Shown here in pieces: positions 40,617-44,808 of a stretch of 64,000 nucleotides of DNA. A program made the translations under genes and the position numbers. How positions within the stretch are numbered: position 1 is the stretch's first letter; the number at the start of each line of letters is the position of its first letter. The stretch lies in contig CADCHI010000001.1 in NCBI GenBank assembly GCA_902801165.1, positions 91,186-155,185 on the forward strand. The letters run 5' to 3'. The DNA is from an uncultured Eubacteriales bacterium (GTDB lineage: Bacteria > Bacillota > Clostridia > Christensenellales > Aristaeellaceae). The notes beneath the pieces are model-generated. The model had not been told where the DNA came from. It saw only the letters and a program-made list of their open reading frames with translations, and did not search any database.

Positions 40617-40773
40617 TCGGATTGAACGATTGCGGGCATGTCAAGGCTTGGTGAGAATTGCCTGACATGCTTCCGGGGAAACACGTCTGCGCTGATAGCA
40701 TTCCGTTTCTCCGACCTTGCACAATACCTGGAAGATTCTTTGACTTCGTTTTGCCTTCGGCTCAACTTCGCTT

Positions 40774-40972
40774 GGAATGACCGTGTATCGCACCGCGTGT
40801 CATCCTTCGGTTCCGCTCGGAATGACCGTGTATCGCACCGCGTGTCATCCTTCGGTTCCGCTCGGAATGACCCCGTATCGCGTCGCGTGTCATCCATTGA
40901 CTCTGTTTAGAATGACAGCGCATCGCGTTTCGTGTCATCCTGAGCGGAGCGTCAGCGGAGTCGAAGGATCTT
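40774..40972. repeat. 45-bp tandem repeats and a TCATCCTGAGCG-type repeat
   Basis: Units 40774-40818 and 40819-40863 are identical and centre on CGTGTCATCC; diverged units follow to about 40935. Then TCATCCTGAGCGGAGCG and GTCGAAGGATCTTG end the array, a motif seen again at 46848-46918. The 555-base gap 40617-41171 holds no supported gene. A TATAAT box lies near 41124, upstream of nadD. Confidence 0.85.
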
Positions 40973-42379: not shown

Positions 42380-42736
42380 ATGATAGACTCCAAGCAGCTT
42401 GCCACGAGGATCGCAGAGGTTCTGGACAAGAAGGGCGCGACGGACATCCAGATTCTGGAGGTCGGCCACATGACCTCCATCACCGATTACTTCGTCGTTT
42501 GCAGCGGCCGCAACGTGCAGTTCGTGCACACCCTGGCCGAGGACCTGGAGGAGCACCTGGCCGAGGAGGGCATCGAGCCCCGCCGCAAGGAGGGCAAGAA
42601 CGGCGCGCGCTGGATCGTGCTGGACTTCGCTCACGTGATCGTGCACATCTTCCATCCCGAGGAGCGGCAGTACTACAACATCGAACGCCTGTGGCAGGAC
42701 GGCACCAACGAGGAGCACTTCGAAAGCAAGGAATAA
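42380..42736 (+). CDS. rsfS: Ribosomal silencing factor RsfS
   Basis: 118 residues, normal length. VLDKKGATDIQILEVGHMTS and ITDYFVVCSGRN are the family signature, followed by the HVIVHIF strand. RsfS binds ribosomal protein L14 and blocks subunit joining when nutrients are short. A GGAGG site precedes the ATG. It sits after nadD-yqeK as in most bacteria. Confidence 0.95.
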   Translation: MIDSKQLATRIAEVLDKKGATDIQILEVGHMTSITDYFVVCSGRNVQFVHTLAEDLEEHLAEEGIEPRRKEGKNGARWIVLDFAHVIVHIFHPEERQYYNIERLWQDGTNEEHFESKE

Positions 42737-42770: not shown

Positions 42771-42799
42771 TTGCGATCGGCCGCATATAAGATTATAAT
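42771..42799 (+). promoter_or_regulatory. Promoter of the T-box leader
   Basis: TTGCGA, 17 bases, TATAAT. It places the transcript start near 42806, just ahead of the T-box Stem I. Confidence 0.65.
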
Positions 42800-42807
42800 T
42801 TGTTTAA

Positions 42808-43096
42808 CGCGATGAAGGAAAGAAGTAGGCCATCCTCTCCGCATCAGAGAGCCGCCGGTAGGTGCGAGGTGGTTGCGCGGATCGGCTGAATACATTCCGG
42901 AGCGGCGCACCGAAGGGACGGCGCGGATATTTCCGCATGATGTCGGTCCTTGTAGGCTGCGACGGGTTCGCCCGATAGCGCGAGGGAGCCGGACAGGGCT
43001 CCGTGAGGGCGCGCGCCGAGAGGCGGCGTCAAACTGAGGTGGTACCACGGGTTTATATTGGCCCGTCCTCTGCAATGCGCGGAGGACGGGCTTTTT
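42808..43096 (+). promoter_or_regulatory. T-box riboswitch leader, specifier UAC (tyrosine)
   Basis: All the T-box landmarks are present. Stem I starts GATGAAGGAAAGAAGTA and carries the distal AGAGAG and GGTAGGTGCGA segments. On the 3' side GAA-TAC-A (specifier at 42891-42893) is held between helix GGCC/GGCT and helix GGAA/TTCC. The conserved T-box GAGGTGGTACCACGG is at 43036-43050, with UGGU facing an ACCA tRNA end, as in tRNA-Tyr. A terminator stem GCCCGTCCTC / GAGGACGGGC (43061-43091) is followed by TTTTT. Uncharged tRNA-Tyr should favour antitermination and expression of the acyl-CoA ligase at 43174. Confidence 0.92.
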
Positions 43097-43173
43097 GCAT
43101 GCCAAGGAGGCAGCTCAATCGCCGTAGCGCCTGCGGGCGGGACGGCGGAAAATGAGAACGGAGGACGACGACC

Positions 43174-44808
43174 ATGCCAATTACCGAGATTCTGGAGCAA
43201 AACGCGAAGCTGTACGGCGGCGAGACCGCCCTGGTGGAGATCAACCCCGAGGTGCGCGAGGATCGCCGCGTGACCTGGAAGGAGTACGAGCTGATCGAGC
43301 GCGGCACTTCCGAGGAGTTCCGGCGGGAGATCACCTGGAGCGTGTTCAACGAGAAGGCGAACCGCTGCGCCAACCTGCTGATGAGCAGGGGCATCAAGAA
43401 GGGCGACAAGGTCGCCATCCTTCTGATGAACTGCCTGGAGTGGCTGCCGGTGTACTTCGGCATCCTCAAGACCGGTGCGCTGGCCGTTCCGATGAACTAT
43501 CGCTACTCCGCCGACGAGATTCGCTACTGCGCGGACTTGGCGGACGTGGACGCGCTGTTCTTCGGGCCGGAGTTCATCGGCCGCGTGGAGGAGATCATCG
43601 ACCGGATTCCCAGGGTCAAGCTGCTGTTCTACGTGGGCGACAACTGCCCGACCTTTGCGGAGAACTTCCTGCACCTGGCCTCCAACCAGCCCAGCAATTC
43701 CCCGGACGTGGCGCTGACCGACGCGGACGATGCGGCGATCTACTTCTCCTCCGGCACCACCGGCTTCCCCAAGGCGATCCTGCACAACCATGAGAGCCTG
43801 ATGCACGCCGCCCGCACCGAGCAGAAGCACCACAGCCAGACCCACGAGGATGTGTTCCTGTGCATCCCGCCGCTGTACCACACCGGCGCGAAGATGCACT
43901 GGTTCGGCAGCTTCCTGGTGGGCGGCCGCGCCGTGCTGCTGAAGGGCGTGAAGCCGCTGACCATCATCAAGACCGCCGCCGAGGAGCACTGCTCCATCGT
44001 GTGGCTGCTGGTGCCCTGGGCCCAGGACATCCTGGACGCCATCGACCGGGGCGAGATCGACCTGGCCCAGTACGACCTGTCTCACTGGCGGCTGATGCAC
44101 ATCGGCGCGCAGCCGGTGCCCAGGAGCCTGATCAAGCGCTGGAAGGAGAAGTTCCCGAACCACCAGTACGACACGAACTACGGCCTGTCCGAGTCCATCG
44201 GACCCGGCTGCGTGCACCTGGGCGTGGAGAACATCGAGAAGGTCGGCGCCATCGGCGTGCCCGGCTATGGCTGGCAGGCCCGCATCATCGACGAGCAGGG
44301 CAACGACGTGAAGCAGGGCGAGGTCGGCGAGCTGGCCGTGAAGGGCCCCGGCGTCATGACCTGCTACTACAAGGACCCCAAGGCCACCGCCGAGGTGCTC
44401 CACGGCGACTGGCTGTGGACCGGCGACATGGCCATGCAGGACGAGGACGGCTTCATCTATCTGGTGGACCGCAAGAAGGACGTCATCATCACCGGCGGCG
44501 AAAACCTGTATCCCGTCCAGATCGAGGACTTCCTGCGGGCCCATCCCGCCATCAAGGACGTGGCGGTCATCGGCATTCCCCACGCGCGCCTGGGCGAGAT
44601 CGCCGCGGCGATCATCGAGCTGAAGCCCGGCGCGACGGCCACCGAGGCGGACATCGAGGCCTTCTGCCAGGGCATGCCCCGCTACAAGCGGCCCCGGAAG
44701 ATCATCTTCGCCGACGTGCCCCGCAACCCCACCGGCAAGATCGAAAAGCCGAAGTTGCGCCAGATCTACGGCGCGCAGTACCTGGTCGCCGAGCAGGTTG
44801 GCCGCTGA
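43174..44808 (+). CDS. T-box-controlled acyl-CoA ligase (AMP-forming, ANL superfamily)
   Basis: 544 residues. P-loop YFSSGTTGFPKA (residues 190-201), IPPLYHTGAK, the NYGLSES adenine motif, WLWTGDMAMQDEDGFIYLVD, RKKDVIITGGENLYP and the catalytic Lys in PRNPTGKIEK. It would make an acyl-CoA from a carboxylic acid, ATP and CoA. Its place behind a tyrosine-type T-box, and ahead of paaK and an ACT-domain gene, suggests an aromatic acid made from amino acid breakdown as substrate; the sequence itself would also fit a medium or long fatty acid. The ATG has AACGGAGGACG upstream. Confidence 0.88.
   Translation: MPITEILEQNAKLYGGETALVEINPEVREDRRVTWKEYELIERGTSEEFRREITWSVFNEKANRCANLLMSRGIKKGDKVAILLMNCLEWLPVYFGILKTGALAVPMNYRYSADEIRYCADLADVDALFFGPEFIGRVEEIIDRIPRVKLLFYVGDNCPTFAENFLHLASNQPSNSPDVALTDADDAAIYFSSGTTGFPKAILHNHESLMHAARTEQKHHSQTHEDVFLCIPPLYHTGAKMHWFGSFLVGGRAVLLKGVKPLTIIKTAAEEHCSIVWLLVPWAQDILDAIDRGEIDLAQYDLSHWRLMHIGAQPVPRSLIKRWKEKFPNHQYDTNYGLSESIGPGCVHLGVENIEKVGAIGVPGYGWQARIIDEQGNDVKQGEVGELAVKGPGVMTCYYKDPKATAEVLHGDWLWTGDMAMQDEDGFIYLVDRKKDVIITGGENLYPVQIEDFLRAHPAIKDVAVIGIPHARLGEIAAAIIELKPGATATEADIEAFCQGMPRYKRPRKIIFADVPRNPTGKIEKPKLRQIYGAQYLVAEQVGR

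Follow-up and report, generated by a model that had tools for sequence, protein, structure and literature searches.

A tyrosine-type T-box leader 5' of an AMP-forming acyl-CoA ligase, and a proposed role in tyrosine synthesis from arylacetate

In Firmicutes, tyrosine-type T-box leaders are found with tyrS and with genes of tyrosine biosynthesis or transport, and the parts of PMC2494555 covered place them before synthetase, chorismate-route or transporter genes. The leader described here shares their RNA architecture, Tyr specifier and transcription antitermination, but the gene that follows encodes an AMP-forming acyl-CoA ligase. Why should such a ligase stand under a tyrosine switch? The reading favoured here, at a probability of roughly 0.7, is that the ligase serves tyrosine synthesis from an arylacetate by way of indolepyruvate:ferredoxin oxidoreductase (IOR).

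The window (the whole 64,000-nucleotide stretch analysed) corresponds to C1:91186-155185 of a draft genome that is 88.6% complete and spans 3.55 Mb in 98 contigs; nearly all the data used are draft genomes or metagenome-assembled genomes (MAGs). Table 1 lists the features.

Table 1. Features of the leader, the ligase and their surroundings, in window coordinates.
Feature	Position	Strand	Basis or remark
Tandem repeat	40769-40941		unit 45 bp, 2.8 copies, 93% matches; 3' of a gene whose product has a GH120 insertion domain
rsfS	42380-42736		TIGR00090; 5' neighbour of leader
Sigma-70-like promoter, TTGCGA-N17-TATAAT	42771-42799	+	consensus scan, 10/12 matches; ends just 5' of leader
T-box leader (RF00230), tyrosine type	42803-43073	+	Rfam 101.1 bits, E 4e-21, model 1-219
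Specifier codon UAC (Tyr)	42891-42893	+	register, conservation and covarying flanking helices
Antiterminator, bulge UGGUACC (UGGU 43040-43043)	43036-43070	+	fold -13.6 kcal/mol
Intrinsic terminator	43060-43092	+	14 pairs, 10 GC, then T run; fold -29.6 kcal/mol
AMP-forming acyl-CoA ligase, 544 aa, predicted arylacetate-CoA ligase	43174-44808	+	PF00501 and PF13193
PaaK-like phenylacetate-CoA ligase, 442 aa	44907-46235	+	TIGR02155 542.9 bits, under cut-off 646.3; PF14535
Tandem ACT-domain protein, 147 aa	46248-46691	+	PF19571 ACT_8, 84.9 bits over 23.5

The leader RNA and its specifier codon

The T-box is genuine. The full RF00230 model is covered at a score above the gathering value of 93, and the 5' strand of the terminator is also a strand of the antiterminator, with CCCGUCCUC common to both, making the two folds mutually exclusive. 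The landmarks, coordinates and pairings of the preliminary description, made from the letters of the sequence, are thus confirmed. No further Rfam match reached gathering across the 64-kb window, the T-box excepted. The source genome holds 17 T-box matches at E<=0.001, of which four, the window leader among them, lie above the Rfam cut-off. The promoter scan covered 4.7 kb and found one match against 1.1 expected in shuffles, so the promoter in Table 1 is not evidence by itself.

The specifier loop reads GAA-UAC-A-UUCC and pairs to GGAA, with one spacer base after the codon. This register (codon, one base, 3' strand of lower stem I) was good in 8 of 11 same-genome leaders tried: those of pheS, valS, alaS, metS, cysS, ileS, trpB and one Trp-type ABC gene. 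Stem checks place the leuS leader off register with two spacer bases and the hisS leader with none; a second Trp-type ABC leader is unscored because the stems entered for it were unequal, and the proS leader was left out of the count. The genes 3' of these T-boxes are presumably those named, the names being given from a reading of the protein starts. Read in the same register, UAC also appears in the leaders of an aminotransferase gene on contig C9 and a sodium:solute symporter (SSS) gene on contig C2. The default frame of TBDB is this register, with UAC in 99% of Tyr leaders according to the sections of PMC7778990 covered.

Comparison with relatives points the same way. UAC stands in 31 of 32 leaders preceding orthologous ligases and UUC (Phe) in one, and the base 3' of the codon and the stem vary among the 32 while the codon is near-constant. 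The tyrosine specifier first read by pairing alone is upheld by these leaders and by the same-genome register. Leu (UUA) and Thr (ACN) frames for the symporter and ligase leaders were set aside because the register fits 8 of 11 leaders and the stem pair adjoining the spacer covaries (AU in 17, GC in 6 of 23 aligned leaders).

The T-box sequence UGGU fits the discriminator A of tRNA-Tyr(GUA), as had been proposed. ARAGORN placed tRNA-Tyr(GUA) in one locus each of six same-genus genomes, and hand reading of all six sequences shows discriminator A followed by CCA at the end; two typed tRNA-Tyr patterns gave no match in the window's own MAG. Separately, the Phe-type (UUC) leader 5' of a ligase orthologue (L094:4672-4929) carries the T-box UGGC, which would be unable to pair with an A discriminator.

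Helix conservation was assessed in 23 of the 32 leaders. Pairs of stem I and the antiterminator are intact in 97.0% of cells (88.3% shuffled; 37-58% slid), and 14 of 25 pairs have changed on both sides somewhere, against 6.2 in shuffles, a control whose pair counts kin sequences without structure can exceed and from whose fault the slid controls are free. The outer antiterminator helix is invariant and hence uninformative; in the inner helix, three of five pairs have changed on both sides. Terminator pairs are intact in 86.6% of cells (81.9% shuffled; 49-58% slid), and the doubly changed pairs, 5 against 3.5, are unexceptional, since 80 of 500 shuffles were equally high. Compensatory changes thus back stem I and the antiterminator and, more weakly, the terminator.

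Spread and origin of the leader-ligase pairing

Of 100 related genomes, 48 encode an orthologue of the ligase (E<=1e-100). A scan of a contig collection added the best 80 of 587 loci; most of these come from gut and rumen MAGs, and their titles include Ruminococcus and Lachnospiraceae. Leaders were sought on the same strand within 1.5 kb 5' of the ligase, using a search profile for which 16 T-boxes of the source genome served as the basis. They were found in 20 of 26 genus genomes (28 minus one without a ligase match and one with only its 3' part), in 6 of 21 other related genomes and in 6 of 75 named loci (the 80 minus duplicates L096-L100; three of the 75 have <500 nt upstream). In 30 of the 31 cases outside the window the leader lies 43-201 nt from the ligase, and in one 1,259 nt. 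The conservation that the preliminary description put forward for checking therefore holds in most of the genus, and fails in the other 6 of 26 and in 69 of 75 named loci outside it, where no leader was found and all Ruminococcus-titled loci are included.

The six leaderless genus genomes were also blank by Rfam at E 0.01; rsfS is still 5' of the ligase there, the order unchanged. Pieces of 11-12 kb from 10 of the 15 leaderless other related genomes held no T-box at gathering. On the ligase tree, a quick one with a long-branch warning that leaves out 26 hand-picked named loci (mostly Ruminococcus), the five duplicates and matches of <480 residues, T-box presence takes nine changes, eight forced by well-supported branches. 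Leaders have been gained or lost repeatedly.

One possibility would be that the leader is a stray copy, for example from the aminotransferase-tyrS leader, brought beside the ligase by rearrangement and having little function. The six genomes that lack it at the same rsfS-ligase order imply that it is dispensable to the cell. However, it is retained in other genera and other gene orders, with a near-invariant codon and compensatory helix changes, and through eight to nine changes of presence on the tree the codon remained Tyr or Phe. The absence of tyrS from the fetched ligase loci also speaks against a stray copy, which we judge highly improbable.

A tyrS deletion junction as the origin of the leader is rejected: it is unlikely because a search of 121 ligase loci, as fetched (96 outside the genus and 25 inside, with the five duplicates and two 5'-truncated loci, L182 and L183, left out), revealed no tyrS, and the codon is almost always UAC. 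The two outcomes named beforehand as telling against the preliminary description, a different specifier on comparison and tyrS between leader and ligase in relatives, thus both came out negative.

The ligase, its partner genes and the likely direction of the proposed pathway

As first described, the ligase lies directly 3' of the leader and is followed by the PaaK-like and tandem-ACT genes. GGAGGA precedes its ATG, and the frame contains SSGTTGFPK, YGLSE and PTGKIEK, which we take to be core motifs of AMP-forming (ANL) acyl-CoA ligases. Arylacetate specificity is predicted from the genomic context. PaaK starts 98 nt 3' of the ligase; it is possibly part of the ligase operon and might have a promoter of its own. 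Within the genus, PaaK adjoins the ligase at 23 of 25 loci and the ACT gene at 22 of 25.

At six relatives' loci, IOR and the ligase share one T-box-headed operon, in the orders ligase-IorA-IorB (L082 and L111, the former continuing with an aminotransferase), MFS-type gene and then ligase-IorA-IorB (L081), ligase-IorA (L114), ligase-SSS-IorA (L094) and ligase-SSS-IorA-IorB (L095); another T-box locus has ligase-SSS (L083). Leaderless loci show ligase-IorA-IorB-PaaK-ACT (L087, L088, L090, L091, L138) or a ligase divergent from IorA-IorB-PaaK (L113, L116, L117, L146). Outside the genus, the fetched piece included IorA at 24 of 96 ligase loci; within it, at 0 of 25. With pieces of 3.8-13.6 kb, both counts are lower bounds. 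The source genome encodes IorAB (IorA 691 bits over the cut-off of 650.9, IorB 282 over 230) away from the ligase, and the T-box profile had no match in the 19 kb surrounding iorAB (L185). Uncorrected for kinship, 47 of 48 ligase-bearing genomes encode IorA (E<=1e-120), versus 22 of 52 that lack the ligase. All 10 further genomes with the ligase that were tried had IorA as well; seven are Ruminococcus, with R. flavefaciens and R. albus, species without this leader, among them. The T-box operons with IOR support the earlier suggestion that aromatic amino acid supply is tied to acid activation.

Two further genes of the source genome have Tyr T-boxes of their own. The symporter gene on C2 (L187:7539-9098, minus strand) is one; its orthologues have an upstream T-box at 28 of 30 loci, with UAC in each by hand reading. 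On C9 (L186:6964-9789), a Tyr T-box is followed by an aminotransferase-fold gene and then by tyrS, 366 nt on. The best NCBIfam match of that aminotransferase, under cut-off, is to MocR-type regulators, and the protein starts past their DNA-binding part.

The ligase may instead activate another acid (a fatty acid, phenylpropionate or hydroxybenzoate) for some other use at tyrosine shortage. Its best NCBIfam match, PRK06187, is a broad long-chain acyl-CoA ligase subfamily reached at 410 bits, under the cut-off of 476, and its PDB matches extend from FadD13 to feruloyl- and 4-coumarate-CoA ligases, a breadth that leaves room for such a substrate. Against this, the ligase shares operons with IOR, whose 2-oxoacids are arylpyruvates; one leader is keyed to Phe instead of Tyr; and a separate MbcS-like ligase with Ile and Val leaders could cover the branched acids. 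Another acid is therefore an unlikely substrate, though the least unlikely of the alternatives weighed here.

Tyrosine synthesis from an arylacetate would involve: binding of tRNA-Tyr by the leader, a transcription-terminating T-box; formation of the antiterminator with uncharged tRNA-Tyr, allowing transcription of the ligase and perhaps of PaaK-ACT; formation by the ligase of the CoA thioester of an arylacetate, 4-hydroxyphenylacetate being the likeliest; reductive carboxylation of the arylacetyl-CoA to the 2-oxoacid by IOR; conversion of the 2-oxoacid to tyrosine by the aminotransferase encoded just 5' of tyrS; and import of the acid or the amino acid by the symporter under the third Tyr T-box. 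The tRNA response is predicted from features of the RNA, and the ligase substrate, the direction of flux and the transport substrate are likewise put forward as probable.

Regulation bears on the direction. It is established, as passages of PMC11477304 state, that a T-box passes transcription when its tRNA is uncharged; therefore the ligase would be wanted at tyrosine shortage. The preliminary description had mentioned ligase use at tyrosine shortage, which comes close to salvage, although it named no pathway. AMP-forming ligases typically favour acyl-CoA synthesis (PMC13285125, sections covered). A switch that works under starvation and an enzyme class that favours activation together make the anabolic reading the best.

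The same enzymes could in principle run oxidatively, with ligase and IOR yielding ATP in a Stickland-like tyrosine fermentation of the kind the preliminary description gave as its example. In favour of this, the 2-oxoacid step can run both ways, and Clostridia are known to carry clusters for tyrosine fermentation that include oxidoreductases of this kind (sections of PMC13285125). Induction at tyrosine shortage, however, has the wrong sign for fermentation, and the enzyme is AMP-forming, whereas the routes described in those sections use a kinase with a phosphotransacylase, or an ADP-forming ligase. Among the ORFs in the 19 kb surrounding iorAB, each judged by its first 60 residues, two resembled sugar kinases and none was recognised as resembling an acetate kinase or a phosphotransacylase. 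With the starvation switch, the AMP-forming ligase and the relatives' operons with IOR and symporter all pointing to synthesis, fermentation is disfavoured and appears quite improbable.

Several observations count against salvage: the leader is missing from 6 of 26 genus genomes, the IOR genes of the source genome lie apart from the ligase and outside T-box control, and tyrA is present. TyrA is encoded on contig C3, which carries none of the 17 T-boxes; salvage would therefore supplement de novo tyrosine synthesis in this organism. Loss of TyrA as a motive for salvage is unsupported, PF02153 being absent in 8 of 48 genomes with the ligase and 12 of 52 without.

Related routes have been described elsewhere. 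The aryl-acid route of Methanococcus maripaludis leads from aryl acid to aromatic amino acid via IOR, as proposed here (cited in PMC4162585, sections covered); in contrast, the window system belongs to a bacterium and has its AMP-forming ligase downstream of a Tyr T-box. In Bacteroides, an AMP-forming arylacetate-CoA ligase beside IOR may serve biosynthesis, a role suggested by the authors of PMC13285125 as it is here; the sections covered mention no T-box. The sections covered of PMC2494555, PMC3766115, PMC7778990 and PMC11477304 contain no acyl-CoA ligase under a T-box. A literature search joining T-box and reductive carboxylation, with subscription journals mostly outside its scope, returned among the matches listed titles on CAR T cells and DiGeorge syndrome. 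Further matches concerned mycobacterium nitrogen stress, by title, and Geobacter metallireducens, where the T-box passages covered concern leuA.

A parallel, possibly branched-chain set and its implications

A second ligase of the source genome has a comparable setting. On contig C57 (L184:2180-4450, minus strand), a T-box of 67.3 bits (E 2.6e-14, under gathering) lies 5' of a 756-aa fusion of a cupin domain and an AMP-forming ligase, with an HTH-like start under the Pfam cut-off. The best NCBIfam match of the fusion is MbcS, at 421 bits well below the cut-off of 850. The gene is divergent from a VOR-type operon comprising a ferredoxin-like ORF, a VorB-type subunit (472 bits over the cut-off of 399), a KorB/PorB-type subunit under cut-off and one more ORF that looks subunit-like.

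By profile, 27 of 30 fusion loci, the own locus included, have an upstream leader; 26 of these leaders carry AUC (Ile) and the remaining one GUC (Val). Four more leaders, located further 3', read GUA (Val) in three and CUC (Leu) in one, some leaders being weak; by coordinates, the three GUA leaders precede a second ligase copy. Fusion and symporter codons were read by hand (for the fusion, at a GAAG/CUUC stem), and automatic extraction, which had taken other stems in most symporter and nearly all fusion leaders, was discarded. Weak T-box matches with a CUC-like codon also occur at L137:1817-3973 and L175:1594-1821; the one in L137 precedes an ORF in which a TIM barrel resembling xylose isomerase is fused to an incomplete AMP-binding domain.

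This set would fit the use of branched-chain acids as sources of branched-chain amino acids. Taken with the aryl set, it allows a wider proposal, for and against which we see about even odds: a general T-box regulon of acid salvage in which the T-box of each carboxylic-acid CoA ligase is keyed to the amino acid that results once a 2-oxoacid:ferredoxin oxidoreductase has reductively carboxylated its acid. The aryl ligase would answer to Tyr and once to Phe; the MbcS-like fusion to Ile, Val and perhaps Leu.

If the proposal is true, the specifier codon reveals the metabolic direction and the end product of ligase and IOR in anaerobes, in which these enzymes are commonly interpreted as fermenting amino acids. 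Salvage of acids by reductive carboxylation would be an added class of T-box target. Observations of the 1960s, cited in the sections of PMC7356843 covered, describe the formation in the rumen of phenylalanine from phenylacetate, in cultures, and of leucine from isovalerate, for which these loci would supply candidate genes. A general regulon would provide genes, control and direction for the long-established conversion of rumen arylacetate and branched volatile acids to amino acids, and the tyrosine switch would explain when and why aromatic acids are recaptured.
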